This document shows, piece by piece, positions 9,603-61,009 of a DNA stretch of 64,000 bases; the stretch's first letter is position 1, and each line of letters begins with the position of its first letter. Location: contig NZ_JAIQDG010000011.1 in the NCBI RefSeq assembly GCF_020037125.1, positions 186,001 to 250,000 on the forward strand. Direction: 5' to 3'. Under the pieces are notes generated by a model, which saw only the letters and a program-made list of their open reading frames with translations, was not told the DNA's origin and did not search any database. A program made the position numbers and the translations under genes. Source of the stretch: Myxococcus sp. RHSTA-1-4 (GTDB taxonomy: Bacteria; Myxococcota; Myxococcia; Myxococcales; Myxococcaceae).

Positions 9603-9986
9603 TCAGGCAGGGAAATGGGGGGTGGGCGGCTGGGAGACCGGCTCGAAGCTCAACCGGTCACCTTCCCGCGTTCCGCTGGCCTCCAGGACGCCCGCGGGCA
9701 GCTCCAGGACGGAGCGTGATTGAAAGTACACGGAGGTTGCCCGCCAGGGAGGGAGCGCTGAGAGCTGCTTGACGATGACGCCCTGGGCGTCCAGGAAGGC
9801 CACGTCAATGGGGATGCGCATGAAGAAGGTGTGGATGGAGTTGCAGGGAAGGATGTGCAGCCCCTCGCCCACGGCGAGCGAGCGCCGCCCCATGAGTCCC
9901 TTGAAGCGGTGGAGGAACCCGGTGGCCCGCTCGGCCCGGTCCGCCAACAGCCGCTGCCGTGTCTCGTTGTTCACCCTCCAGCGCAT
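9603..9986 (-). CDS. DUF192 family protein
   Basis: 127 residues. The DUF192 fold is recognised by ATGFLHRFKGLMGRRSL, GEGLHILPCNSIHTFFMRIPIDVAFLD and LELPAGVLEASGTREGD. Many members are periplasmic with a signal peptide, but this one begins MRWRVNNETRQRLLADR without one, so it is probably cytoplasmic. Biochemical function is unknown for the family. Its start (9986) is only 17 bases from the chosen start of the divergent trmL gene (10004), so promoters and ribosome-binding sites of both genes must overlap their coding ends. It is followed by the PP2C gene. Confidence 0.85.
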   Translation of the reverse strand: MRWRVNNETRQRLLADRAERATGFLHRFKGLMGRRSLAVGEGLHILPCNSIHTFFMRIPIDVAFLDAQGVIVKQLSALPPWRATSVYFQSRSVLELPAGVLEASGTREGDRLSFEPVSQPPTPHFPA

Positions 9987-10003
9987 GTAGCGCGTTCTAC
10001 CCC

Positions 10004-10507
10004 ATGCTCGAACCCCTGGCGCGTCCTCTGCATCTGGTCCTGGTCTCCCCGCAGATTCCCCCCAATACGGGCAACGTGGCCCGGCTGTGCGCGGTGACGG
10101 GCTGCCGCCTCATCCTGGTGGAGCCGCTGGGCTTCTCCATCGACGACCGGCACCTGAAGCGGGCGGGGCTGGACTACTGGGACAAGGTGTTCCTCCGGCT
10201 GTATCCCACCTATGCGGCGTACGTGGCGGACTACCCGGAGGCCCGGCGGTGGCTCTTCTCGGCGCGGGCGGAGACGTCCCTGTACGAGGCCCGGTTCCAG
10301 GAGGGCGACCACCTGGTGTTCGGCTCGGAGGTGACGGGGCTCCTGCCGGAGGTGATGGAGGGGGGGACGGGGACGGCGGTGACGATTCCGATGCTACAGG
10401 ACCGTCGCAGCCTGAATCTGTCCACGGCGGTGGGGATTGGGGCCTATGAGGCCCTGCGGCAGGTGGCCTTCAGCGGAGCGGGCAGGCAGGCCCCCCCGGC
10501 AAGTTGA
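10004..10507 (+). CDS. trmL: tRNA (cytidine/uridine-34-2'-O)-methyltransferase TrmL
   Basis: 167 residues from ATG 10004 (MLEPLARPLHLVLVSPQIPP). SPOUT-class TrmL: PQIPPNTGNVARLCAVTGC, LEPLGF near residue 50, WLFSARAE, HLVFGSEVTGLLPE and the knot-forming IPMLQDRRSLNLSTAVGIGAYEALRQ. TrmL methylates the ribose of nucleotide 34 in the wobble position of certain leucine tRNAs. A longer start at 9959 would overlap the divergent gene and adds an atypical tail. The gene ends 34 bases before the giant J-domain protein gene, so the two may be co-transcribed. Confidence 0.92.
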   Translation: MLEPLARPLHLVLVSPQIPPNTGNVARLCAVTGCRLILVEPLGFSIDDRHLKRAGLDYWDKVFLRLYPTYAAYVADYPEARRWLFSARAETSLYEARFQEGDHLVFGSEVTGLLPEVMEGGTGTAVTIPMLQDRRSLNLSTAVGIGAYEALRQVAFSGAGRQAPPAS

Positions 10508-10541: not shown

Positions 10542-13500
10542 ATGACCCCGTCGCAGGCCGCCGAAGCGCTGTATTCCGCCCACAAGTCCCGAGCCACCGG
10601 GTGGCTGACGCTTTCCGCGGGAGGGCGTGAGTCCCGGCTGTTCCTGCGCGAGGGGAACCTCGTGGGCACGCGGCTGGGGTTCGGGTACCAGAGCCCGGCG
10701 CAGGCGCTCTTGCAGAGTGGGATGCTGGGCGCGGAGGCGCTGGATGCGCTGTGGGCGCGCGGCGGGGCGGGGGCGCCGGACGAGGAGTTGCTGGAGGAGT
10801 ACGGCCTGGAACCGGACGTGGTGGTGGAGCAGCAGGTGCTCGCCCACGTGCGGAGGCTGAGCGAGCTGGCCGAGCGCGCCGCGTTCGAGCCCGGCTCGGT
10901 GGAGGAGGACTTCCGCCCCATCGCGGGGGCGCGCGTGGTGCGCGCGGCGCTGGAGACTCCGCACGGTGCGGCGCCGGTGGTCCGGGTGTTCCGCTGCGAG
11001 GATGTCGCGGCGTGCGAGCCGTGGCTCACGGATGAGTCGGAGCGGGAGTTCTTGGAGACGCTGGCGGAGTTCCGGCAGCCGGAGGGGTTGACGGCCGCGC
11101 AGGAGGCACTGCTGCTCGTGCTGGAGCGCGAGGGGTGTGTCCAGGCGCTGTCGGTGGAGGAGTGGGAGGCGCGGGAGCAGGCTCGGCGGGAGGAGGAGGC
11201 TCGGCGGAGGGCGGAGGAGGAGGCACGCCGACTCGCGGAAGAAGAGGCACGCCGCAGGGCCGAAGAGGAACGGCTGGCCGAAGAGGCTCGACTGGCGGAG
11301 GAGGCCCGGCTGGCCGAAGAGGCTCGGCGGGCTGAAGAGGCTCGGCTCGCTGAAGAGGCTCGACTGGCGGAGGAGGCCCGGCTCGCTGAAGAGGCTCGAC
11401 TGGCGGAGGAGGCCCGCCTCGCTGAAGAGGCTCGACTGGCGGAGGAGGCCCGGCTCGCTGAAGAGGCTCGACTGGCGGAGGAGGCCCGGCTCGCTGAAGA
11501 GGCTCGACTGGCGGAGGAGGCCCGCCTCGCGGAGGAGCGTCGTCTCGCGGAAGAGGCCCGGCTCGCTGAAGAGGCTCGCCGCGCGGAAGAAGCGCGCCTC
11601 GCGGAAGAGCGTCGCCTGGCGGAGGAGGCCCGTCTCGCTGAGGAGGCTCGGCTCGCGGAGGAGGCCCGTCTCGCCGAGGAGGCCCGCCTCGCGGAGGAGC
11701 GTCGTCTCGCTGAGGAGGCCCGGCTGGCTGAAGAGGCTCGCCGCGCGGAAGAAGCGCGCCTCGCGGAAGAGCGTCGCCTGGCTGAGGAGGCCCGTCTCGC
11801 TGAGGAGGCTCGGCTCGCTGAGGAGGCTCGGCTCGCTGAGGAGGCTCGGCTCGAAGAGGAGCGTCGTAGGGCCGAGGAGGAAGCGCGTCTGGCTGAGGCT
11901 GCAAGGCTCGAAGCAGAGCGCCTCCGCGCGGAAGAAGAGGCTCGGCTGGCCGAAGAGGCGCGTCTGGCGGAGGAGCGCCGTCGCGCCGAAGAGGAGGCCC
12001 GTCTCGCGGAAGAGGCTCGCCTGGCCGAGGAAGCCCGCCTTGAGGAAGCGCGTCGTCTTGCCGAGGAAGCTCGCCTTCGGGCTGAGGAAGAGGAGCGGCG
12101 CGCCGCCGAGGAACGTCGCAGGGCCGAGGAAGAAGCGCGTCTGGCGGAGGAGGCGCGCATTGAGGAGGAGCGCCGGCTGGCCGAAGAGGCGCGTCTCGCG
12201 GAAGAGGCCCGGTTGGCCGAAGAGGCCCGCCTGGCGGAGGAGCGTCGTCTCGCGGAAGAGGCCCGGCTCGCGGAAGAGCGGCGCTTGGCTGAGGAGGCCC
12301 GCCTCGCCGAAGAACGGCGCCTCGCTGAAGAGGCTCGGCTGGCTGAAGAGGCTCGTCTCGCTGAGGAGGCTCGGCTGGCTGAAGAGGCTCGTCTCGCTGA
12401 GGAGGCTCGGCTGGCGGAAGAGGCTCGCCTAGCGGAGGAGGCTCGTCTCGCTGAAGAGGCCCGGCTCGAAGAGGAGCGTCGTCTCTCGGAAGAAGCCCGG
12501 CTGGCGGAGGAGGCTCGCCTTGCCGAACAGCGACGCCTGGAGGCTGAAGCGCGTCGTGCAGAGGAGTTGAGGCTCGCGGAAGAGGCTCGGCTGGCCGAGG
12601 AAGCGCGCCTCGCGGAGCAGGCGCGCCTCGAAGAAGAGCGTCGCCTCGAAGAAGAGCGTCGCCTCGAAGAGGCTCGGCTGGCGGAGGAAGCGCGCCTTGC
12701 TGAAGAGGCTCGCCTCGAAGAGGAGCGCCGACGAGAAGAGGCCCGCCTGGCCGAAGAGGCCCGGCTTGAAGAGGAGCGTCGTCTCGCTGAAGAGGCTCGG
12801 CTCGAAGAGGAGCGTCGCCTCGCGGAGGAGGCCCGTCTTGCCGAGGAGGCCCGGCTCGAAGAGGAGCGTCGCCTCGCTGCGGAAGAAGCGCGGCTGGCCG
12901 AAGAGGCCCGTCTTGCTGAACAGCGACGCCTGGAGGAAGAAGCGCGTCGCGCGGAGGAACTGAGACTCGCAGAGGAAGCGCGCCGGGCTGAGGAGGAACG
13001 CCGCAGAGTCGAAGAAGAGCGCCGCGCGGAAGAGGCTCGGCTGGCGGAAGAAGCTCGCCTCGCCGAAGAGGCTCGCCGCGCGGAAGAAGAGCGTCTGGCG
13101 GAAGAGGCTCGACTGGCTGAGGAAGCTCGCCTCGCGGAGGAAGCCCGCCTTGAAGAGGAGCGTCGTCTCGCGGAAGAAGCGGCTCGCCTTGCCGAGGAGG
13201 CCCGTCTAGCCGAGGAGGCCCGCCGCGCCGAAGAAGCGCGCCTCGCCGAAGAGGCACGGCTGGCGGAAGAGGCCCGCCGCGCCGAAGAAGCGCGCCTCGC
13301 CGAAGAGGCACGGCTGGCGGAAGAGGCTCGTCTCGCCGAAGAAGCGCGTCGCGCGGAAGAGCGTCGCCTCGCCGAGGAGGCCCGTCGGGCCGAAGAGGCA
13401 CGGTTGGCGGAAGAGGCTCGCCTCGCGGAAGAAGCGCGCCTCGCGGAAGAGCGTCGCCTGGCTGAGGAGGCCCGGCTGGCGGAAGAGGCTCGCCTCGCGG

Positions 13501-16166
13501 AGGAGGCCCGTCGGGTCGAGGAGGCTCGCCGCGCCGAAGAAGCGCGCCTCGCCGAAGAGGCCCGGTTGGCGGAAGAGGCTCGCCGCGCCGAAGAGGCTCG
13601 CCGCGCCGAAGAAGCCCGGTTGGCCGAGGAGGCCCGTCTAGCCGAAGAGGCTCGCCTGGCTGAGGAGGCCCGGCTGGCGGAAGAGGCTCGCCTCGCAGAG
13701 GAGGCCCGTCGGGCCGAAGAGGCACGGCTGGCGGAAGAAGCACGCCTTGCGGAAGAAGCGCGCCGCGCGGAGGAGGCTCATCGGGCCGAAGAAGCACGCC
13801 GCGCCGAGGAAGCCCGCCGCGCGGAGGAGGCCCGCCGCGCCGAAGAAGCACGCCGCGCCGAGGAAGCTCGTCGCGCGGAAGAAGCGCGCCTGGCCGAGGA
13901 AGCTCGTCGCGCGGAAGAAGCGCGCCTGGCCGAGGAAGCTCGTCGCGCGGAAGAAGCGCGCCTGGCCGAGGAAGCTCGTCGCGCGGAAGAAGCGCGCCTG
14001 GCTGAGGAGGCCCGTCGCGCCGAGGAACTTCGTCTCGAGGTGGAGCGCCGCCGTGCGGAAGCGGTGCGCAAGGCGAAGGAGGCGCGACTCGCGGAACAGG
14101 CGCGGCTCGCGGAGGAAGCTCGTCGCGCGGAGGAGGCTCGTCGCGCGGAAGAGGCCCGCCGTGCCGAAGAGGCCCGCCGCGCGGAGGAAGCCCGCCTCGC
14201 CGAAGCGGCCCGTCAATCCGCCGCCTCCGCGCCCGCGCCGGACGACGCCGATGCGCTCGCCCTCGATGTCGGAGACATCATCGTTCCCGACTCCGAGGCG
14301 CGGCAGTCACCGGACGCCTCCTGGGCGGACGCCGTCTCGCGGGCAGCATCTTCCACCCTGGACCTCCCGTCCTCGGCCGAGGACCCCGAGGCCCTGCGGG
14401 TCGCACGTCAGCGCGCCCAGGCCGCGCTCCTCCACGACATGCAGGAGGCCATCCGCCGCTCGAAGACGCAGCCGCTGGAGCCCTGGCTCGCAGAGGAGCC
14501 TCCTCGCGCCACGCCTCCCACGCGGACGAAGGACCTCGTCCCCGCCCAGCACGAGCCGTGGAGCGCCCGGGAGACCACCCTCTCCCCCCCGTCCGAGGCC
14601 GACCCGGCGGAAACCGAAACCGACCTGCCCCTGCTGGAGCTCGAACCCGAGGCTCTGCTGGAGGCCACCCCGGTCCCCGAGCCACTCCCGAAGCCCGCCG
14701 CTCCGGCCCGGGCCTCCACCTCGGGGCCACCCGTCCTCACCCCCGCCGCGCCCCCCAAGTCCAAGGGCGGGCCGCCCGTCCTCACCCCCGTCGCCGCCCC
14801 GCAGCCCCCCACCGCGGACGTGCTCGACGGGGGAGACGACGCCAGCCTGTGGACCTCGCGCCCGGCGCCGCTGGCGGCCCCGCCCCCGCTCCGTCTGGGC
14901 CCGGCCGCCCCCAAGGCAGGCGAGGAAGACCTGTGGCGCATCGTCTCCTTCGACAAGGACGAGGGCGCGGCGAGCCTGACGGCCTCCTTCGAGGCGGCGC
15001 TCATGCAGGTGGACTCCCACCTGGAGTCGCTCATCCGCTCGGATGTCAATCAGGCGGGCGTCGATTTCAACGAACCCCCCGTCGAAGCCATTGTTGAAGC
15101 GACGATCGAACCGGGGGACCCCCTGGATCCAGGTTTCATCCCCGGTGACAACCGAGATGCAACTGGACAGACTGCATGGGCCGAGCCGTCCGGGGACCTG
15201 GACGACTGGGACTTCGACGAGGACGACGTGGCGGCAGACCCCTCCAATCCCGACGAGGCAGCGAAGCTCCGGCGCCAGCGCCTGCTGCGCCGTGCGATGG
15301 AGAACATGGGCGTACTCGGCTCGCGTGGACCCGCCGTGGTGGGTGCCACACCCACCGCCGAGCCCGCCCAGGCCACCCCCACGCCGCCCGCGCCTTCCGA
15401 GCCGCCCAAGCCGGACGAGGCGCGGCTCGCCCAGCAGATTGAGCAGCGCTACTCGGACGTCCAGGCCCGCAGGGACCACTTCTTCGTGCTCGGCGTCCCG
15501 CAGGACGCTTCCCGCGAGCAGGTGAAGTCCGCCTTCCTCAGCCTCGCCAAGCTCTTCCACCCGGACCGGCTGCCGCCAACGCTGCCCCACCTGGCGCCGA
15601 AGATTACCGCCGTCTTCGAGGCCATCCGCGAGGCCTACGAGGTCCTCTACGACGACGCCCGGCGCAAGGCGTATGTGCAGAGCCTCCAGGCCCAGCAGGC
15701 CCTGCCGAAGGCGCCCGCGCAGGCCTCTTCGTCCGCTCCCGCCGCCCGGACCGCGGGCCGTCCCGACAGCAGCCCGGACGACCTCTACAAGATGGGCGAG
15801 GTCTACTTCCGCAAGCGGGACTTCACCACCGCCTCGGACCACTACGACCGCGCCTACTCGATGGACCCGAAGCCCCTGTACCTGGCCGCCCGCGCCTGGG
15901 CCATCTACATGGACCCGGCCCGCAAGGCGGACATCCCCAAGGCCAAGCAGATGATGGCGGACGCGGTGCGCGCCGACCCCAACTGCGACCGCGCCCACTA
16001 CCAGCTCGGTGTCATCGCCCGCGTCGAGGGCGACATGGACCGCGCCGAGCGCCACTTCCGTGAGGCGGTGCGCGCCAACTCCAAGCACCTGGAGGCCAAC
16101 CAGGAGCTGCGCCTCATCGAGATGCGCAAGAAGAACCCGCCCAAGAAAGGTGGCTTCTTCCGCTGA
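10542..16166 (+). CDS. Giant PATAN (DUF4388) - charged helix - J-domain - TPR protein
   Basis: 1,874 residues from ATG 10542. Residues 1-140 are a DUF4388 (PATAN) domain (TGWLTLSAGGRESRLFLREG, GNLVGTRLGFGYQSPAQALL). Residues about 205-1226 are an almost unbroken array of the hexad LAEEAR with variants RAEEAR and LEEERR: a very long charged helix, either coiled coil or single alpha-helix, roughly 150 nm if extended. A Pro/acidic linker follows. A DnaJ-type J domain with the HPD motif is at 1673-1675 (LAKLFHPDRLPP), and TPR-like repeats occupy 1746-1865 (DDLYKMGEVYFRKRDFTTAS; HYQLGVIARVEGDMDRAERH). There is no signal peptide. I infer a scaffold that can recruit DnaK through the HPD. The start at 10437 offered by the frame overlaps trmL. 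The role is unknown. Confidence 0.88.
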   Translation: MTPSQAAEALYSAHKSRATGWLTLSAGGRESRLFLREGNLVGTRLGFGYQSPAQALLQSGMLGAEALDALWARGGAGAPDEELLEEYGLEPDVVVEQQVLAHVRRLSELAERAAFEPGSVEEDFRPIAGARVVRAALETPHGAAPVVRVFRCEDVAACEPWLTDESEREFLETLAEFRQPEGLTAAQEALLLVLEREGCVQALSVEEWEAREQARREEEARRRAEEEARRLAEEEARRRAEEERLAEEARLAEEARLAEEARRAEEARLAEEARLAEEARLAEEARLAEEARLAEEARLAEEARLAEEARLAEEARLAEEARLAEEARLAEERRLAEEARLAEEARRAEEARLAEERRLAEEARLAEEARLAEEARLAEEARLAEERRLAEEARLAEEARRAEEARLAEERRLAEEARLAEEARLAEEARLAEEARLEEERRRAEEEARLAEAARLEAERLRAEEEARLAEEARLAEERRRAEEEARLAEEARLAEEARLEEARRLAEEARLRAEEEERRAAEERRRAEEEARLAEEARIEEERRLAEEARLAEEARLAEEARLAEERRLAEEARLAEERRLAEEARLAEERRLAEEARLAEEARLAEEARLAEEARLAEEARLAEEARLAEEARLAEEARLEEERRLSEEARLAEEARLAEQRRLEAEARRAEELRLAEEARLAEEARLAEQARLEEERRLEEERRLEEARLAEEARLAEEARLEEERRREEARLAEEARLEEERRLAEEARLEEERRLAEEARLAEEARLEEERRLAAEEARLAEEARLAEQRRLEEEARRAEELRLAEEARRAEEERRRVEEERRAEEARLAEEARLAEEARRAEEERLAEEARLAEEARLAEEARLEEERRLAEEAARLAEEARLAEEARRAEEARLAEEARLAEEARRAEEARLAEEARLAEEARLAEEARRAEERRLAEEARRAEEARLAEEARLAEEARLAEERRLAEEARLAEEARLAEEARRVEEARRAEEARLAEEARLAEEARRAEEARRAEEARLAEEARLAEEARLAEEARLAEEARLAEEARRAEEARLAEEARLAEEARRAEEAHRAEEARRAEEARRAEEARRAEEARRAEEARRAEEARLAEEARRAEEARLAEEARRAEEARLAEEARRAEEARLAEEARRAEELRLEVERRRAEAVRKAKEARLAEQARLAEEARRAEEARRAEEARRAEEARRAEEARLAEAARQSAASAPAPDDADALALDVGDIIVPDSEARQSPDASWADAVSRAASSTLDLPSSAEDPEALRVARQRAQAALLHDMQEAIRRSKTQPLEPWLAEEPPRATPPTRTKDLVPAQHEPWSARETTLSPPSEADPAETETDLPLLELEPEALLEATPVPEPLPKPAAPARASTSGPPVLTPAAPPKSKGGPPVLTPVAAPQPPTADVLDGGDDASLWTSRPAPLAAPPPLRLGPAAPKAGEEDLWRIVSFDKDEGAASLTASFEAALMQVDSHLESLIRSDVNQAGVDFNEPPVEAIVEATIEPGDPLDPGFIPGDNRDATGQTAWAEPSGDLDDWDFDEDDVAADPSNPDEAAKLRRQRLLRRAMENMGVLGSRGPAVVGATPTAEPAQATPTPPAPSEPPKPDEARLAQQIEQRYSDVQARRDHFFVLGVPQDASREQVKSAFLSLAKLFHPDRLPPTLPHLAPKITAVFEAIREAYEVLYDDARRKAYVQSLQAQQALPKAPAQASSSAPAARTAGRPDSSPDDLYKMGEVYFRKRDFTTASDHYDRAYSMDPKPLYLAARAWAIYMDPARKADIPKAKQMMADAVRADPNCDRAHYQLGVIARVEGDMDRAERHFREAVRANSKHLEANQELRLIEMRKKNPPKKGGFFR
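11155..14220 (+). repeat. 18/36-bp tandem repeat array coding LAEEAR hexads
   Basis: About 3 kb built from an 18-base unit coding LAEEAR and its variants. Some blocks are near-identical 36-mers in series, for example around 11340-11525 (alternating GCTGAAGAGGCTCGACTG and GCGGAGGAGGCCCGGCTC) and four copies at about 13860-14000. Other parts are diverged only at synonymous sites. The strict 18-base period keeps the reading frame for any gain or loss of units. Confidence 0.93.
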
Positions 16167-16267: not shown

Positions 16268-16297
16268 TTGACATGCCTGGAAAGCGGGCAGGATGCT
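16268..16297 (+). promoter_or_regulatory. Candidate sigma70-type promoter for the PATAN response regulator
   Basis: A perfect -35 hexamer TTGACA (16268-16273) is followed after 18 bases by GATGCT (16292-16297), a partial -10. An in-frame ATG at 16293 would lie inside this -10, which favours the GTG at 16347 as translation start. Confidence 0.5.
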
Positions 16298-16346
16298 CCC
16301 GCGCCAGGCTCTCTGTAGAAGTCCGCAGCGACGAAAGGCAAGTAAC

Positions 16347-19154
16347 GTGGCCAAGCAGCACCTGCTCCTGGTCGATGGTGACGCAAAGAGCCTCCGCGTG
16401 ATGGAGGTCAGCCTGAAGAAGGCCGGCTTCTCCGTGACGACGGCCATCCACGGCAAGGATGCGCTCGAGAAGGTTCAAATCAGCCCACCGGACCTCGTGC
16501 TCGCGGACACGAAGATGCCGGAGATGGACGGCTTCGAGCTCTGCAAGGCGCTCAAGTCCGACGAGCGCTTCAAGTTCATCCCCTTCGTCTTCCTGACGAA
16601 CCAGAAGTCGGTCGAGTTCAAGGTGCGCGGCCTGGAGCTCGGTGGCGACGACTACCTGACGAAGCCCATCTACATCAAAGAAATCGTCACCCGCGTGAAG
16701 ATGATCCTCCAGAAGGCGGAGAAGGAGAGGATCGAGAAGCGGGAGACGACGAAGGGCGGCTTCGCCGGCAGCCTCGCCGACATGGGCGTGGTGGACCTGG
16801 TGCAGACGTTCGAGATTGGCCGCAAGACGGGCATCATCTCCATCCAGGGCGAGCGCACCGGCACCGTCTACTTCAAGGAAGGCCGGGTCATCGACGCGGA
16901 GCTGGGGCGGCTGAAGGGCGAGAACGCCTTCTACCGCATGCTCAACACGTTCGAGGGCCAGTTCGAGGTGCAGTTCACCGCGCTCGACCGCCCGGAGCGC
17001 ATCGAGGTCTCCACCCAGGGCCTGCTGATGGAAGGCATGCGCCGCCTGGACGAGTGGGGCCGCATGCTCGAGCAGCTCCCGCCGCTGGAGACGGTGTTCG
17101 AGATTGACTACCACCAGCTCGCCGACCGGCTCTCGGAGATTCCGGACGAGGTCAACGGGCTGCTGCGCCTCTTCGACGGCAAGCGCACCCTGAGCCGCGT
17201 GGTGGAGGACTCGGACTTCGAGGACCTCGCCGCGCTGGGCATCATCAGCAAGCTGTACTTCGAGGGCCTCATCCGCGAGCTGGGCAACGCCCCGCTGGAG
17301 CCGGTGCCGAGCAGCAAGCCCGGCATCGAGCAGTGGCTCAACGCGGCGCCGCCTCCCAGCGCGCCCGTGGAGCCCGCGCCCGCCACGCCTCCGGAGCCGC
17401 CGCCCGCCGCCGTGGCCGCGCCTCCGGAGCCGCCGCCCGCCGCCGTGGCCGCGCCTCCGGAGCCGCCGCCCACGCCCGCCGCGCCCGAGCCGCCGCCCGC
17501 CGCGCCCGTGGAGGCTCCGCCCGCGCGCGCCATGCCCCCGAGCGTGCTCGCGCCGCCCGCGGGCGTGGAGGACCCGGGCGCGTCCGCCAGCCCCGCCACC
17601 GGGGCCCAGCCCGCCAACGTCGTCGTCTTCCCGGCGCGGCCCCGGCGCAACGGCGCCGTCCCCGCGACGCCGGATCCGGAGGACACTCCCGCGCTTCCGC
17701 CCACGGCGGAGGGCTCGTCCTTCCTCGTGGAGCCGCCTCCGGCCCACCGCGCCCGCGAGCACGCGCACCGCAGCCTGCTGCTGGACTGGAGCCGCGTGGA
17801 CACCGAGGGCATCAGCTCGGCCTCCACGTGGGGGCCGGGCTCCGGCTGGGCTCCCGGGCCGCGCGCCTACCCGAGCAACAGCGCCCCGGCACAGGCCCAG
17901 GGGACTTCGGCCTCCGAGACGGCACCGCGCGCTCCCATCTTCGGTGGCGCGGCCGTGGGGCCCAACCCCTTCCCGCCCGTGCCTCCTCCCGCGCCGGCGC
18001 CTCCCTCGTCCGAGGTGACGCTGGTGAGCGGCAGGGGCGGCGCGGCTCCGGCCGCGGTGCCGCCGGTGGCGCCCGTGTCCGTGGAGCCCATCGCGGAAAT
18101 CGAGGAGGTTCCTCCGACTCCGCAGCTCGCACTGCCGCCGTATCCGGGCCACGGGGCTCCCCCGCCCGTGACGCCGGTGGCGCCCGAAATCCCCGAGGAG
18201 CCGCGCACGCCGAGCTCGCCGCCGCCCGCGGTCGCCGTGGCGCCTCCTGTCGAGACGAAGCCGGCGGAGGTGAAGCCCACCGAGACGAAGCCGCAGCCGC
18301 CCGCCGCCGAGGCGAAGCCCGCGACGGTGGCGCCCGCGAAGCCGGCGGGGACTCCGTCGGAAGATGACGCCGCGCTTGCCGCGGTGGTCCGCCCCAAGCG
18401 CACCGGTCTGTACGTGGCCGCCGGCCTGCTGCTCATCGGCGCCGTCGCCGCGGTGGTCGCTCTGGGCGGTGGCTCGGGCTCCTCGGACCCGCGTCAGGCT
18501 CCGCCCCCGAAGGCCCCGGTGGAGACGCCGGCACCTTCCAACACGGTGACGCCGCCGGGCACGGACACGCCCACGCCGCCGCCCGAGGCCGCCACGCCTC
18601 CGGCCGCCGAGGATGCGGGAGCCGCCACGGCCACCGCGGCCACGCCTCCGGTCACCGAGGACGCGGGAGCCGCCACGGCGACCGCGGCCACGCCGCCTCC
18701 CGCCGCCGCGCCGGACGCCGGGACGGCCACCGCGGAGACTCCGCAGCCCCCGGGTGGGGAGACGCCGCCGGTGGACCCGGAGGTGGAGTACGCGAACCTC
18801 GTGAAGCAGGCGAAGGCGGCCATCGTCGGTGGCCGCCACAAGTCCGCCGCCATCAGCTACCGCAAGGCGCTGGCCCTCAAGCCGGCCTCGATGGAGGCGA
18901 AGGCGGGCCTGGGCATCGCGCTGGTCAACGGCTCCACCTCGGACGCGGCCTACCGCGAGGCCGCGAAGCTGCTCCAGGAGGTCGTCCGGGAAGAGGACCG
19001 GAATGCGCGCGCCTGGCTGTCGCTCGGCATCGCGCTGCAGATGACCGGAAAGAATTCCCAGGCGGCCGAGGCCTACAAGCGGTACTTGTTCCTCGAACCG
19101 ACGGGAGCCTCCGCCACTGAGGCCCGCTTGATGCTCAAGCAACTGGGCAACTGA
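16347..19154 (+). CDS. Response regulator with PATAN (DUF4388), transmembrane segment and TPRs
   Basis: 935 residues from GTG 16347, with AAAGG upstream. Residues 5-120 are a receiver domain: phospho-acceptor D54 ([12 protein letters not shown]), T84 and K106 (DDYLTKPIY); the acidic pocket has GD where DD is usual. Residues 135-235 are a PATAN/DUF4388 domain ([36 protein letters not shown]). A winged-helix-like part follows, then a long Pro/Ala linker with repeats, one membrane segment ([17 protein letters not shown], near 686-702), a second Pro/Ala stretch, and C-terminal TPRs (about 815-930, [20 protein letters not shown]). The signalling part would be cytoplasmic and the TPRs on the other side of the membrane. 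No cognate histidine kinase is adjacent. The neighbouring giant gene carries the same PATAN domain. Confidence 0.85.
17396..17480 (+). repeat. 33-bp in-frame repeats in Pro/Ala linker
   Basis: Units coding [11 protein letters not shown] recur back to back (about 2.5 copies) in the linker of the response regulator gene. A second pair of longer repeats ([15 protein letters not shown] / [15 protein letters not shown]) lies at about 18603-18696 in the same gene. Confidence 0.8.
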
Positions 19155-19200: not shown

Positions 19201-20196
19201 TTGCTCGTCCTCGGACTGGAAACCTCCTGTGATGAGACCGCCGCCGCCGTCGTGGAGGACGGGCGGCGCGTGCTCGCCGACGTCGTCTCCACCCAGGTGG
19301 ACATCCACCGGCGCTGGGGTGGGGTGGTGCCGGAGCTGGCCAGCCGCAACCACATCGTCCAGGTGATGCCCGTCATTCACGAGGCCCTCACCCGCGCCCA
19401 GAAGACGCTCGACGACGTGGACCTCATCGCCGTCACCTCCGGCCCCGGCCTCATCGGCGCGTTGCTGGTGGGCGTGCAGGTGGCCAAGGGGTTGAGCCTC
19501 GCCACCGGCAAGCCCTTCGTGGGCGCCAACCACCTGGAGGGCCACCTGCTGGCCATCCGGCTCATCGAGGAGGCCCCGGAGCCGCCGTTCCTCGGGCTCG
19601 TCGTCTCCGGCGGGCACTCCAGCCTCTACGAGGTGCAGGCCTATGGCCGCTACCGGCTGGTGGGCAGCACCCGCGACGACGCGGCCGGCGAGGCCTACGA
19701 CAAGACGGCGCGCATCCTCGGGCTGCCGTACCCGGGCGGGCTGCCCATCGACCAGCTCGCGCAGAAGGGGGACCCGGAGGCCATCCGCTTCCCGCGCGCG
19801 CTCCCCGGCGACAACTTCGACGTCTCCTTCTCCGGCCTGAAGACGGCGGTGCTGCACCACGTGCAGAAGCACGGCGTGCCCGAGGGACAGGCGCTGGCGG
19901 ACCTGTGCGCGTCCTTCCAGGAGGCGGTGGCGGACGTGCTGTCGAAGAAGCTGGTGGCCGCCGCGCGCCGGCTGGGCCACAAGCAGCTCGTGCTGTGCGG
20001 GGGCGTGGCGGCCAACTCGCGGCTGCGCGCGCTATGCAGCGAGCGCGCCCGGGAGCGGGGGCTGAACATGTTCCTGCCGCCGGTGCGGCTGTGCACGGAC
20101 AATGGCGCCATGATTGCCGTGGCGGGTTATGAGGCGTACCGCAGGGGGCTGCGCGGGGACTTCCGCCTGGCGGCGGACCCCGCGTGGCGCATGTAG
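19201..20196 (+). CDS. tsaD: tRNA threonylcarbamoyladenosine transferase TsaD
   Basis: 331 residues from a TTG at 19201, with GGAG upstream; no ATG or GTG is in frame at the right place. TsaD/Kae1 hallmarks: LGLETSCDETAAAVV, RWGGVVPELASRNH, SGPGLIGALLVGVQ, the metal-binding HxxxH in NHLEGHLLAI (H111, H115), LVVSGGHSS, DDAAGEAYDK, SFSGLKTAV, CGGVAANSRLR and CTDNGAMIA. It transfers the threonylcarbamoyl group to A37 of ANN-decoding tRNAs, together with TsaB and TsaE, which are not in this window. RsmA follows 15 bases downstream, so the two are likely one transcript. Confidence 0.95.
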   Translation: MLVLGLETSCDETAAAVVEDGRRVLADVVSTQVDIHRRWGGVVPELASRNHIVQVMPVIHEALTRAQKTLDDVDLIAVTSGPGLIGALLVGVQVAKGLSLATGKPFVGANHLEGHLLAIRLIEEAPEPPFLGLVVSGGHSSLYEVQAYGRYRLVGSTRDDAAGEAYDKTARILGLPYPGGLPIDQLAQKGDPEAIRFPRALPGDNFDVSFSGLKTAVLHHVQKHGVPEGQALADLCASFQEAVADVLSKKLVAAARRLGHKQLVLCGGVAANSRLRALCSERARERGLNMFLPPVRLCTDNGAMIAVAGYEAYRRGLRGDFRLAADPAWRM

Positions 20197-44603: not shown

Positions 44604-44650
44604 GTGGGCCGCGTCCCGGCTGGAAACTGGCTTCAGTGGGGCGGTGTGGC

Positions 44651-45118
44651 ATGAAGGTCCACATGGCCTCTCCGCTGATTGTGAAGGTGCGTCGCGTGCG
44701 CGCGCACCCGGACCCGCTGCCCCTGCCCCGGTACGAGACGGAGCTCGCCGCCGGGCTGGACCTGCGCGCGGACATCGACGGGGAGCGCGTGCTCCGGCCG
44801 ATGGAGCGGATGGCGGTGCCCACGGGCCTCGCGCTCACCCTGCCGCCGGGCTACGAGGGGCAGGTCCGGCCCCGCTCGGGGCTCGCGCTCCGGCATGGCG
44901 TCACCCTGCTCAACGCACCGGGGACGGTGGACGCGGACTACCGGGGGGAGGTGCAGGTCATCCTGGTGAATCTCTCCGGCGAGCCCTTTACCCTGCGTCG
45001 TGGGGACCGCGTGGCGCAGTTGGTCGTGGCCCCCGTCACCTCCGTGGAGCTGCGCGAGGTGGAGGTGCTGGACGAGACGGCGCGGGGCGCGAACGGCTTC
45101 GGTTCCACCGGCCGGTAG
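44651..45118 (+). CDS. dut: dUTP diphosphatase
   Basis: 155 residues from ATG 44651; ATG 44663 is also possible. Hydrolyses dUTP to dUMP, keeping uracil out of DNA. All five trimeric dUTPase motifs are visible: AGLDLRADI (I), [11 protein letters not shown] (II), [15 protein letters not shown] (III), [14 protein letters not shown] (IV) and the C-terminal GFGSTGR (V). Genetically complementary to the UdgX at the window start, though 43 kb away. Confidence 0.95.
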
Positions 45119-45165
45119 GGGAGACGTCGCTCGTCGTTCCTTGCTGTCAGGGGAGCGGTCAGAAT

Positions 45166-47970
45166 ATGAGGTCGGGCCGCCCCCCGTGGTGGCCACCCCC
45201 GACTGGCCCCTGGAGTCCGACTGCTTTGCTCTGCTACCGCTGCGGCAGCCACGTCCCAACCACGACCGACACCTGTCCCACCTGCGGGCTGAAGTTCGAC
45301 GCGGCGTCGCGCCAGGCGGCCGGCGCCGCCCGCAGAAGGGGACTGGAGGGCGCCCCCTTCAAGCCGGGGGACGTCGTCGCTGGCCGCTACGCCATCCAGG
45401 AGGTGGTGGGCGCCGGGCCCATGGGCTTCGTCTTCCGGGCCCAGGACCAGGAGATTGACGTCGAGCTGGCCCTCAAGGTCGTGCACCCGCGCCTCGTGCA
45501 GCAGCCCGAGGAGCGCACCCAGTTCTCGCTGTCCCTCCGGGTGGGGAAGAAGCTCAACCACCCCAACCTGCTGCGCGTGTACGAGGAGGGCCTGGACGGG
45601 GACCGGCCCTTCTTCACCATGCAGCTCCTGGAGGGGATGACGCTGCGGCGGATGCTGGAGCAGCGCGTCGCTCGTGGGCAGCTCTTCTCGCTGAAGGACG
45701 TGGAGCCGCTGCTCGCGCAGATGGCCGCCGCGCTGGACGCCGCGCACCGCTTCGGTCCGCACTCGGACCTGAAGCCGGAGAACGTCATCGTCCTGCCGGA
45801 CCTGCTGAAGGTGACGGACTACGGGCTGGGGCTGGCCGTGCCGCACCTGCCCTTCGCCCAGGCCCAGAAGGGCCACCGCGCGGACGTCTACATCGCGCCG
45901 GAGTACGTGAGCGGTGGCGAGCTGGACACGCGCATGGACGTGTACTCGCTCGGCGTCATCATGGGCGAGCTGGTCACCGGACTCCTGCCGGAGGAGGGCG
46001 TCATTCCCGGGTTGACGATGCACCACCCGGACCTGCCGATGTCCTTCGAGGCGCTCTACCGGCGCGCGCTCAACCCCAACCCGCTGGCACGGCCGAAGAC
46101 GGCGGGGGAGCTGCACGCGGAGTTCGCCAACATCCTCTCGCGCCAGCCGGCCGCCGTCGTGACGCGCCAGCGCGCGCCGTTGCCCGCGCCGGGCTCGCCG
46201 CAGGCCGGTGGCGCGAAGGCACCTCCCAGGCCGCCCCCGCCTCCGCCCGTGCCCACCGGCATGCTCCCGATTCCCGAGGGGCTGGCGTCGCCTGGAGTCG
46301 CCTCGCCCGGTGTCGCCTCGCCGGGAGTGGCCGCACCGAGGGTGCCCGTGCCCGTGGAGGAGGAGGAACCGCCCCCGCCCGACGCCACGCAGCCGCTCGA
46401 CGCGGCGACGCTGGCCGCCATCATGGGGAGCAAGCTTCCTCCACCGCCGGCCAGCAGCGGAAACGCCTCGCAGCGGCTGACGGAGCAGGCCCTGCCGTTC
46501 ATCGCACCGCCTCCGCCCAAGGCGCCTCCCGCCGCGCCGGAGCCGCCTCCCGCGCCTCGTGCCTCCGGGCCCGCGCCCCGGCCCTCGGGTGCGGTGCCCG
46601 CGCATGTCCGCGCCGCCCCGCGTGGAGAGGACCGGAACGGCGCGCCCACGGGGGACGCGTCCCCGGCTGTCTCTCGAGACCGGAACGGCGCACCGGCGCT
46701 GGAGCCCTCACCGGCCGCTTCGCGAGACCGGAACGGCGCACCGGCGCTGGAGCCCTCACCGGCCGCTTCGCGAGACCGTCACGCCGCGCCGACGCTGGAC
46801 TCGGCACCAGCGGTCTCCGGTGCCCGCTCCGCCGCGCCCACGTTGGAGTCTTCGCCCGCCGTCTCCGGTGCCCGCTCCGGCCCTCGCACCCTGGAGTCTT
46901 CGCCCGCCGTCTCCGGTGCCCGCTCCGGCCCTCGCACCCTGGAGTCCGCGCCCGCCGTCTCCGGTGCGCGTACAGGCCCCCGCTCGCTGGACGCGTCGCC
47001 CACCATGTCGGGGGCGCGCTCGGGGGCTCGCAGGCTGGACTCGCCCACGATGTCCGGTGCGCGCTCGGGCGTCCGCGGCCTGGATTCCCCCACGATGTCC
47101 GGTGCGCGCTCGGGCGTCCGGGCGGCGCTGCCCACCCAACCGGTGATGCGGGCCTCGAAGTCGAAGACCCGCTCCGTGCTGGGCCTGGTGCTCCTCACCG
47201 TGGGCGGCCTGATTCTGGGGGGGGGAGGTGGCTACCTGGTGCTGCGGTTCGTGGTCCCGATGTTGAAGCCGGCACCGGTGCCCCCTGGAGCGCCAGTCAC
47301 GGTGCCGCAGGCGCCGGCCGGGCAGGGCGGCGTCGAGGGGACCACCTCCGCACCGGCAGGGGGGGCATCCGCGGTGGCCGCGCCCGTGGGAGGCTGCCCC
47401 GCGGGCATGCGGCTGGTGAGCGGTGGTGCGTTCAAGATGGGGACGGCACCGGACGACTCCATGAGCTTCCTGGACGAGCGTCCGCTCACGAGCGTCCAGG
47501 TCCCCTCCTTCTGCGTGGATGAGTACGAGTACCCCAACCAGGCCGGGGCCCGGCCGAAGGTGGGCGTGACGTGGGAGGAGGCCCAATCGCTGTGCGAGCA
47601 GGCCGGGAAGCGGCTCTGCACCGAGGAGGAGTGGGAGAAGGCATGCAAGGGTCCGGGCAACGCGCGGTTCCCGTACGGCAACACGTACGACGCCGACGCC
47701 TGCAACACCGAGACGTCCCAGGGCATGGACCGGACGCTGGCGGCGTCCGGGAGCTTCGCACGCTGCCGCTCCGCTTATGGCGTGGTGGACATGTCCGGCA
47801 ACGTGGCGGAGTGGACGTCCACGCGCTTCGACGCGGCGGACTTCACGCACAAGGGCGGCGCGTTCGACCGGCAGGACTACACGTCGCGCTGCTCGGCCCG
47901 GAAGAACGCGGCACCCACGGACCACTCGGACTCGGTGGGCTTCCGCTGCTGCGCGGGCGTGCGGCCATGA
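45166..47970 (+). CDS. Ser/Thr protein kinase fused to a formylglycine-generating-enzyme-like (FGE-sulfatase) domain
   Basis: 934 residues from ATG 45166; a TTG at 45227 giving MLCYRCGSHV is a good alternative. Zinc ribbon (CYRCGS, CPTCGLKFD) at about 23-40; kinase domain about 75-330 with VVGAGPMGFVFR, Lys in LALKVVHP, catalytic HSDLKPENVIV (HSD for HRD) and DYGLGLAV (DYG for DFG). The Lys and both Asp are kept, so activity is likely. A long Pro/Ala/Ser linker with tandem repeats follows, one membrane helix (VLLTVGGLILGGGGGYLVL, near 672-692), and an extracytoplasmic FGE-sulfatase domain (MRLVSGGAFKMGTAP, WEEAQSLCEQAGKRLCTEEE, NVAEWTS, GFRCC). FGE domains in such fusions usually serve as sensors or ligand binders. 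Confidence 0.88.
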   Translation: MRSGRPPWWPPPTGPWSPTALLCYRCGSHVPTTTDTCPTCGLKFDAASRQAAGAARRRGLEGAPFKPGDVVAGRYAIQEVVGAGPMGFVFRAQDQEIDVELALKVVHPRLVQQPEERTQFSLSLRVGKKLNHPNLLRVYEEGLDGDRPFFTMQLLEGMTLRRMLEQRVARGQLFSLKDVEPLLAQMAAALDAAHRFGPHSDLKPENVIVLPDLLKVTDYGLGLAVPHLPFAQAQKGHRADVYIAPEYVSGGELDTRMDVYSLGVIMGELVTGLLPEEGVIPGLTMHHPDLPMSFEALYRRALNPNPLARPKTAGELHAEFANILSRQPAAVVTRQRAPLPAPGSPQAGGAKAPPRPPPPPPVPTGMLPIPEGLASPGVASPGVASPGVAAPRVPVPVEEEEPPPPDATQPLDAATLAAIMGSKLPPPPASSGNASQRLTEQALPFIAPPPPKAPPAAPEPPPAPRASGPAPRPSGAVPAHVRAAPRGEDRNGAPTGDASPAVSRDRNGAPALEPSPAASRDRNGAPALEPSPAASRDRHAAPTLDSAPAVSGARSAAPTLESSPAVSGARSGPRTLESSPAVSGARSGPRTLESAPAVSGARTGPRSLDASPTMSGARSGARRLDSPTMSGARSGVRGLDSPTMSGARSGVRAALPTQPVMRASKSKTRSVLGLVLLTVGGLILGGGGGYLVLRFVVPMLKPAPVPPGAPVTVPQAPAGQGGVEGTTSAPAGGASAVAAPVGGCPAGMRLVSGGAFKMGTAPDDSMSFLDERPLTSVQVPSFCVDEYEYPNQAGARPKVGVTWEEAQSLCEQAGKRLCTEEEWEKACKGPGNARFPYGNTYDADACNTETSQGMDRTLAASGSFARCRSAYGVVDMSGNVAEWTSTRFDAADFTHKGGAFDRQDYTSRCSARKNAAPTDHSDSVGFRCCAGVRP
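46655..47130 (+). repeat. Tandem repeats in kinase linker
   Basis: Units coding RNGAPALEPSPAASRD (48 bases, two nearly exact copies at about 46680-46775) run into a series coding variants of SPAVSGARSGPRTLES and SPTMSGARSGVRGLD (about eight units). Confidence 0.85.
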
Positions 47971-60644: not shown

Positions 60645-61007
60645 GGGGGCGACCTGGTTTCGACGGGGGTAATGAAGTCCGAGACGCGTGCCGAGCTTGT
60701 CAGGTAGCTCGTAAATCCAACCCGGCAAAGACACAAAAGCCAACGACAACGTTGAGCTCGCGCTGGCTGCCTAACAACAGCTTCTAGTGCGCGGTCCCCC
60801 AGCTCTCGGCCCGTGGGGTTGGGACGGACCGTCATAATGCGGGCTGGCTGCCGAGGGTGCCTGGACCCGAGGTGGCGAGACCTTTCCAGGACCGGCTCGG
60901 AGGATCCCGTCCGTGGGAGCCTCCGGGACGTAGCAAATCGCGGACTACGCACGTAGGGTCGAAGGACGGACGACTTTCGGACGCGGGTTCGATTCCCGCC
61001 GCCTCCA
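60645..61007 (+). ncRNA. ssrA: tmRNA (ssrA)
   Basis: Transfer-messenger RNA of about 363 bases, which rescues stalled ribosomes with SmpB. The 5' end GGGGGCGACCTGGTTTCGAC (60645-60664) and the 3' end (T arm GCGGGTTCGATTCCCGC, then CGCCTCC, ending at 61006) pair as the acceptor stem GGGGGCG / CGCCTCC, leaving A61007 as discriminator. The following bases are CAT rather than CCA, so the CCA is added after transcription. The tag frame is at 60739-60774. Ends in an integrated-element border with a terminator just past it. Confidence 0.95.
60739..60774 (+). other. tmRNA tag reading frame
   Basis: GCC AAC GAC AAC GTT GAG CTC GCG CTG GCT GCC TAA codes tag ANDNVELALAA. The C-terminal LALAA is the ClpX degron and the N-terminal AND part is where SspB binds in enteric bacteria. 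The resume codon is taken as GCC at 60739 from comparison with known tags. Confidence 0.88.
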
Positions 61008-61009
61008 CA
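60984..61009. other. Probable attachment site (att) at ssrA 3' end
   Basis: The T-arm and acceptor 3' strand of ssrA (to 61007) directly border the integrase-bearing element. Tyrosine integrases commonly use this exact part of tmRNA genes as att. The partner copy would lie past the right window edge and was not seen. Confidence 0.5.

Follow-up and report, generated by a model that had tools for sequence, protein, structure and literature searches.

A conserved J-protein of the Myxococcus group with a PATAN domain and a thousand-residue charged array: a candidate Hsp70 tether

Introduction

Why would a bacterial J domain be separated from the first domain of its own polypeptide by more than a thousand residues? 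The question is raised by a gene in a 64,000-nucleotide stretch of DNA from Myxococcus sp. RHSTA-1-4 (the window, meaning here the whole stretch that was analysed). A first, sequence-only reading had proposed that its product is a long molecular spacer that recruits a chaperone at a distance.

Several of the parts are known from other bacteria (papers are cited here from extracts of their text). The PATAN regulators of cyanobacteria have PilB or PilC as interaction partners (PMC12288463), and a system made up of DnaK1, the TPR-containing DnaJ3 and GrpE has PilB and Hfq (PMC12288463, PMC9239167); contact between DnaK1 and PilB was not detected in Synechocystis, according to the extract of one of these studies (PMC9239167). 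SglK and StkA, two of the 15 Hsp70-like proteins of Myxococcus xanthus, act on exopolysaccharide (EPS) and social motility (PMC4319316, PMC8265645). No paper on a protein that combines PATAN, array, J and TPR, or on its M. xanthus ortholog, was found in the open-licence literature.

Results

Gene and gene product

The protein consists, in order, of a PATAN (DUF4388) domain, a hexad array of Glu, Ala, Arg and Leu, a motif-bearing linker, a J domain and three TPRs (Table 1). A TTG lies in frame upstream, at 10437, and the alignment of orthologs begins at the ATG at 10542 (MTPSQAAEALY). Pfam recovers DnaJ and TPR_1 (E 4.8e-8), with DUF4388 below threshold. The hydropathy maximum is 0.81, so that a membrane segment is absent. 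A promoter scan for the gene found no site, and a plasmid search with the N-terminus of the protein gave no match.

Table 1. Features of the J-protein gene and its neighbours (window coordinates)
Feature	Position	Strand	Details
SpoU-type methylase gene	9959..10507	+	upstream; part of conserved neighbourhood
J-protein gene	10542-16166	+	open for 1,874 codons; 1,874 aa
PATAN (DUF4388) domain with helical insertion	10542..11189	+	residues 1-216; sub-threshold Pfam, hhalign, AlphaFold
LAEEAR-type hexad array	11193..14216	+	residues 218-1225; predicted single alpha helix
Acidic, proline-containing linker	14217..15473	+	residues 1226-1644; presumed disordered from sequence
Conserved linker motif RRQRLLRRAMENMG	15270..15311	+	residues 1577-1590; pattern match
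J domain	15474..15674	+	residues 1645-1711, HPD 1673-1675; Pfam DnaJ E 9.7e-13, AlphaFold helices
Three TPR repeats and capping helix	15774..16133	+	residues about 1745-1864; AlphaFold, Foldseek
REC-PATAN-TM-TPR response regulator gene	16293..19154	+	953 aa from first start codon of frame
TsaD gene	19201..20196	+	downstream conserved neighbour

The fusion might have been suspected to be an artefact of assembly. The J-TPR part is present, adjoining the same regulator gene, in 38 of the 40 genomes of the family that were sampled, and the complete fused frame recurs in the single-contig genomes G002, G006, G008, G014, G015, G018 and G021, which rules this out. Shorter frames were met in drafts, where two (G112 and G080) hit a contig end and one (G019) contains a stretch of N in the array; in G089 the frame changes inside the array without any N, which may reflect either misassembly or a genuine break. 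On the minus strand, an antisense frame of 941 codons (11026-13851) spans the array and presumably arises from the 18-base repeat.

Elsewhere in the window, the frame at 44644-47970 encodes a protein kinase domain and, at the C-terminal end, an FGE-sulfatase domain, and contains tandem repeats of 48 bp (46630-47120); a tmRNA gene with the tag ANDNVELALAA lies at 60645-61008.

One PATAN domain at the N-terminus

Taken alone, the window protein matches DUF4388 with E 0.0044 and 17.5 bits, against a Pfam cut-off of 25 bits, and 12 of the 15 aligned N-termini of orthologs match it at E<=0.1. Profile comparison supports residues 1-216 as a PATAN domain: hhalign aligned the N-terminal profile of the orthologs with five PATAN domains of the same genome at a probability of 93.5% (E 2.3e-7), while five column-shuffled control profiles gave 0.1-0.2. 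Moreover, a PATAN domain above the Pfam cut-off stands N-terminal to the same J-TPR part in three array-less relatives (L056, L057, L058). The first reading had spoken of several PATAN domains, whereas the profiles support only one. The AlphaFold model of this end (mean pLDDT 88.8) closes with a helix at 205-215, from which the array continues.

Searches of the PDB with the PATAN end found neither a fold match at E<=0.001 nor a sequence relative at E<=1, and the best Z of its model against solved structures in VIA-align was 4.5. In the same comparison, residues 45-105, the helical insertion, aligned with N-terminal domains of pilus and MSHA motor ATPases (PilF, MshE, PilB) at Z 2.1-3.4. This likeness, seen in 7 of 42 VIA-align rows, was discarded because such Z values are too low for use.

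The array as a predicted single alpha helix

The expected LAEEAR array of about 1,000 residues measures 1,008, with 34% Glu, 28% Ala, 24% Arg and 12% Leu (98.6% together), a net charge of -108 and 86 exact LAEEAR units. Its hexad had been called strict. The periodicity is indeed strong, residue identity at lag 6 being 0.78 against about 0.27 from composition (0.76 two units apart), and the word is somewhat overstated, given that the hexads hold 852 residues in 14 blocks, the longest of 47 and 33 units, which are separated by phase shifts.

Whether such a sequence forms a coiled coil or a single helix had been put forward as a matter of spacing. Charge in the array is periodic at six residues, and Leu-type residues show power at period 6 only, with none at 3.5, 3.6 or 3.67. 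A two- or three-stranded coiled coil, forming a stiff oligomeric rod, would draw on the abundance of Ala and Leu and on a heptad seam occupancy that averages 0.572 when Ala is counted. Shuffled arrays reach 0.615 by the same count, however, and without Ala the occupancy is 0.227 against 0.267 in shuffles. A step of six residues turns an alpha helix by 240 degrees, so that the Leu residues are spread over three of its faces. The missing 3.5/3.67 power, a seam occupancy below that of shuffles and this spread of Leu make a single alpha helix likelier, and we regard the oligomeric rod as quite improbable.

The array has the features by which single alpha-helix (SAH) domains are recognised in sequence, namely a high content of Glu with Arg or Lys, a regular charge periodicity and the absence of a hydrophobic seam. 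Its i,i+4 pairs (67 from Glu to Arg, 192 from Arg to Glu) differ from the classic ER/K charge pattern. A long single-helix spacer is thus the better fit to the sequence, and the array probably forms a single-helix tether. If helical, it would have a contour of 151 nm and, with the persistence length taken as 10-25 nm, a root-mean-square span of 53-80 nm.

Signs of selection and of duplication in the array DNA

The alternative that concerns the array most directly is that it is a mostly neutral, duplication-driven expansion within an ordinary linker, whose length has no function. In 27 arrays, the third positions of codons for the same residue, one or two units apart, were compared with synonymous shuffles. 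Agreement between adjacent units exceeded the shuffles by more than 2 sd in 20 of the 27, the mark of recent duplication, and was within 2 sd or below in the other seven. In the window array it is 0.409 one unit apart (shuffle 0.398 +/- 0.013), with the excess appearing two units apart (0.506, where 0.40 is expected). The repeat finder likewise shows closer and more distant matches alternating every 18 bases, which indicates that units tend to duplicate in pairs. The longest exact DNA repeat is 108 bp in the window array and 411 bp in L049, where synonymous shuffles of long arrays average 24-39 bp, which shows that block duplication continues. Repeated 24-mers exceed the shuffles in 26 of the 27 arrays, an excess that also refutes codon scrambling to avoid recombination as a general rule.

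All of this is what neutral expansion would produce, as are the variation in array length among same-genus and named-isolate proteins (631-1,148 residues) and the existence of outgroups that manage without an array. Against it, the synonymous agreement of adjacent units is only 0.40-0.64 across all 27 arrays, while the residues and the hexad are kept. Residues conserved over largely diverged synonymous sites point to selection on the protein, even as its length keeps changing. In addition, no array in the same-genus and named-isolate proteins falls below 631 residues. We consider neutral expansion an improbable account of the array.

The array also differs from its gene in base composition: GC3 is 0.67 in the array and 0.90 elsewhere in the gene (the array being lower in 27/27 cases), and GAA makes up 43% of Glu codons inside it and 13% outside.

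Linker motif, J domain and TPRs

Within an otherwise variable linker, the basic motif RRQRLLRRAMENMG lies 54 residues N-terminal to the J domain. It was found by pattern in 34 of 48 sequences (a set that holds two genomes twice, as L053/L059 and L049/L060), including L057 and L058 from other families of the order. Six of the 14 remaining sequences score 11-12 of 14 identities and six score 7-8, while L061 and L081 are truncated before the motif. Since shuffling each of five proteins 200 times gave maxima of 7-8 identities, the six low scores are no better than chance.

The intact HPD that had been noticed in the window sequence holds throughout the group: it is kept in 27 of 27 aligned orthologs, inside the invariant string HPDRLP. 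Regions typical of class A and B DnaJ proteins (G/F and zinc finger) are absent, the J domain and the TPRs being the only chaperone parts found by Pfam, and a full-length DnaJ model scores 46.5 bits against a cut-off of 377.2, over the J domain only. With good confidence, judging from this HPD-bearing J domain without G/F and zinc-finger regions, the protein can be placed in class C. Class C J-proteins are a known kind, of which this one is a variant and not a new kind.

AlphaFold models the J+TPR piece (mean pLDDT 87.7, pTM 0.53) as J-domain helices, a flexible gap, three TPRs and a capping helix; given the gap and the pTM, the placement of the J domain relative to the TPRs is not fixed. Foldseek returned 34 matches to this model at E<=0.001, mostly TPR domains. 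A role of the TPRs as a clamp for Hsp70 or Hsp90 tails was considered and set aside: Foldseek is uninformative here, as the clamp TPRs of CHIP, Sgt and RPAP3 rank among designed TPRs. The position in TPR1 that we take, by eye against the clamp motif, to be that of the clamp Asn is Glu in the window protein.

A neighbouring REC-PATAN regulator

The gene just downstream encodes a response regulator made up of a REC-PATAN part, a Pro/Ala-rich linker, a hydrophobic TM-like segment (706-724, hydropathy 2.58) and TPRs (Pfam Response_reg E 8.1e-23, DUF4388 E 1.3e-21, and TPR). Its REC domain has what we presume to be the phospho-acceptor Asp and Lys, by eye against the REC motif. Residues from about 14 to 338 are 94-99% identical among Myxococcus, Pyxidicoccus, Corallococcus, Citreicoccus and Hyalangium loci.

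By eye among the matches listed, the regulator lies just downstream of the J-TPR gene on the same strand in all 38 family genomes that have both. Judged in the same way, among matches listed and with contig breaks that could hide pairs, a same-strand adjacent pair occurs in 8 of 15 genomes of the order and in the single genome of the class, and in none of the 41 other genomes of the phylum. A partnership of the regulator with the J-protein has, in our estimation, an even chance of being real. The PATAN domains of the two proteins align poorly (hhalign probability 8.2%, E 0.004; shuffled controls 0.1-0.6), so direct kinship of the partner domains is no argument for binding.

Beyond the regulator gene, TsaD and RsmA follow in most of the loci whose length allows a judgement, L057 and L058 from other families among them. 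Together with the SpoU-type methylase upstream, these translation-related neighbours might suggest that the J-protein has a housekeeping role tied to them. They are, however, ordinary housekeeping enzymes that share neither a domain nor a known step with the J-protein, and a long-standing neighbourhood is by itself weak evidence; we consider a role of this kind very improbable.

Distribution and origin of the array

The phylum sample comprised 97 genomes (40 of the family, 15 of the order, one of the class and 41 from elsewhere in the phylum). A J-TPR match was found in 79 (E<=1e-20) and the PATAN domain of the regulator in 77 (E<=1e-25). Both are present in 38 of the 40 family genomes, the exceptions being G069 and G116, with genomes of 2.7 and 2.1 Mb. 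PilB occurs in 95 of the 97 (E<=1e-100; 87 over the family cut-off), and can be present without the J-protein/regulator pair, as in G069. By eye, 75 of the 87 genomes whose PilB match exceeds the cut-off have the regulator, as do 2 of the remaining 10. This co-occurrence is not used as support, because 8 of those 10 genomes are of 2.8 Mb or less.

Arrays were compared in the window protein and 28 of 47 translated loci, with duplicates, frames truncated at contig ends and the outgroups L054-L058 set aside. Of these 29 proteins, 26 have an array of 571-1,148 residues and L080 one of 189; L082 and L085 are without an array by the array criterion, although L082 has a short helical seed in its place. 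The outgroup proteins L056, L057 and L058 have the architecture PATAN-linker-J-TPR, with Pro/Ala-rich linkers of 206, 321 and 191 residues that lack the hexad. In L054 and L055, which are cut by a contig end, LAEEAR-type units are absent and no charged run exceeds 117 residues. L056-L058 fall outside in a tree of the J-TPR part, where several deep branches are long, and L082 and L085 meet the array-bearing rows at an unresolved fork. The three array-less outgroup proteins indicate that the array is a lineage-specific addition; L082 and L085 may have lost it.

One record among the loci, L070 (Comamonas sp. KCTC 72670, BNCN01000011.1), is Myxococcus-like by its J-protein gene and neighbours, and its name looks wrong.

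Paralogs and candidate Hsp70s

PATAN-J is a recurrent combination in the window genome, and what sets the window protein apart is its long array. The paralog L134 (943-aa frame) is PATAN-J-TPR with HPD. L135 (583-aa frame) is PATAN-J-like-TPR, its J-like region lacking HPD. L136 (157-5832, minus strand; 1,892 aa) has a REC-like start, a long coil, PATAN and J; its canonical HPD place reads HPL, while the letters HPD come a few residues later, outside that place.

These paralogs bear on the possibility that the window protein is a scaffold for polarity or motility, of the kind of FrzS and AglZ, in which the rod and the PATAN domain matter and J is a secondary docking module. L136 and L135 suggest that PATAN-J proteins may manage without Hsp70 activation, and FrzS is itself a pseudo-receiver with a large coiled coil (PMC11580455). 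Yet the HPD is invariant across the aligned orthologs whereas the spacer is free to change, and a pure scaffold seems unlikely to us. A J-protein that acts on an Hsp70 is the reading we retain.

There are 16 J-domain matches in the window genome (15 over the cut-off) and 17 Hsp70 matches, 12 of them long and none on the window's contig (C22). M. xanthus DK1622 has 15 J-domain proteins, among which the ortholog of the window protein should be found; four co-precipitate with MxDnaK1 and MxDnaK2 alike and two with MxDnaK1 alone, as described in the extract (PMC11019930). MxDnaK2 (MXAN_6671) is SglK, the social-motility Hsp70. The position of the ortholog was interpolated by hand from the order of J-domain genes in three single-contig relatives, with the canonical DnaJs taken as MXAN_0750 and MXAN_3292 as anchors, and falls near MXAN_1980 (G006), 2080 (G021) and 2020 (G018); the error was about 50 tags for a J gene taken as MXAN_2745. 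This is hundreds of tags from all six co-precipitated proteins given in that extract (PMC11019930). By interpolation the ortholog is thus not one of the six MxDnaK1/MxDnaK2 binders, which counts against a role with these two Hsp70s. The PATAN proteins MXAN_3211 and MXAN_4965 co-occur with SgmX (PMC11580455); identity of the ortholog with either was considered and not established.

Discussion

Taken together, our results are consistent with a PATAN-docked class C J-protein whose long helix tethers an Hsp70 and whose neighbouring regulator controls it, an explanation to which, as a whole, we would give about equal odds for and against. The N-terminal PATAN domain of this cytoplasmic protein would be a docking or sensing end. 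The array would extend the last PATAN helix as a charged, semi-flexible single alpha helix, with a contour of some 150 nm. The linker motif, the J domain and the TPRs would make up the effector end. There the TPRs or the motif would hold a client, on which one of the many Hsp70s would be stimulated by the HPD. The membrane-anchored REC-PATAN regulator probably controls where or when the J-protein acts.

By analogy, the most likely setting would be the type IV pilus and polarity machinery, together with that for exopolysaccharide, given that the pilus motor of cyanobacteria is the site of action of both PATAN regulators and the DnaK1/TPR-DnaJ3 system. A pilus setting is nevertheless a tentative proposal, with the chances rather against it. 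More speculatively still, one polypeptide may join PATAN-type pilus regulation to the TPR-DnaJ/Hsp70 activity at the pilus motor, with the REC-PATAN regulator recruiting or releasing the J-protein and the arm of about 150 nm carrying a specialised Hsp70 to clients far from the pole or membrane. If this were true, the state of the pilus would be coupled to exopolysaccharide and social motility, and arm length would be a tuned trait.

The architecture is conserved in fruiting-body bacteria of the Myxococcus group. For the specialised Hsp70s of myxobacteria, including the two that act on EPS and social motility, it provides a candidate J-protein and a candidate regulator to control it. A natural series of spacers, from none through a short seed to arrays of 189, about 600 and about 1,000 residues, is moreover suited to testing what a very long helical spacer contributes in bacteria.

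Several known systems come close to this one. AglZ of M. xanthus has an N-terminal signalling domain followed by a very long helical region; these are a pseudo-receiver and a coiled coil, and AglZ is not known to have PATAN, J or TPR. FrzS resembles the window protein in the same way, in a motile myxobacterium, and is likewise a pseudo-receiver with a coiled coil, without PATAN, J or TPR in the extract cited (PMC11580455). PixG, PixE and LsiR of Synechocystis have PATAN in common with the window protein, and their combination of REC and PATAN in common with the neighbour gene (PMC7690835, PMC12288463). Unlike them, the window protein has no REC, and the neighbour protein adds a TM-like segment and a TPR end.

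The DnaJ3-DnaK1-GrpE system of cyanobacteria is similar in its combination of J and TPR, and in that a J-protein serves a cell-surface machine (PMC9239167, PMC12288463). DnaJ3 is separate from the PATAN proteins, whereas the window protein has PATAN, helix, J and TPR in one polypeptide, its link to the pilus being by analogy; a long helix is absent from the description of the DnaJ3 system in the extracts of both papers (PMC9239167, PMC12288463). Finally, the SAH domains of myosins (PMC5378345) and INCENP (PMC4571873) are, like the window array, Glu- and Arg-rich charged helices between domains, and SAHs occur in bacteria too (PMC5378345). Those of myosins reach about 200 residues (PMC5378345), while the window array, which is hexad-based and contains Leu and Ala, runs to about 1,000.
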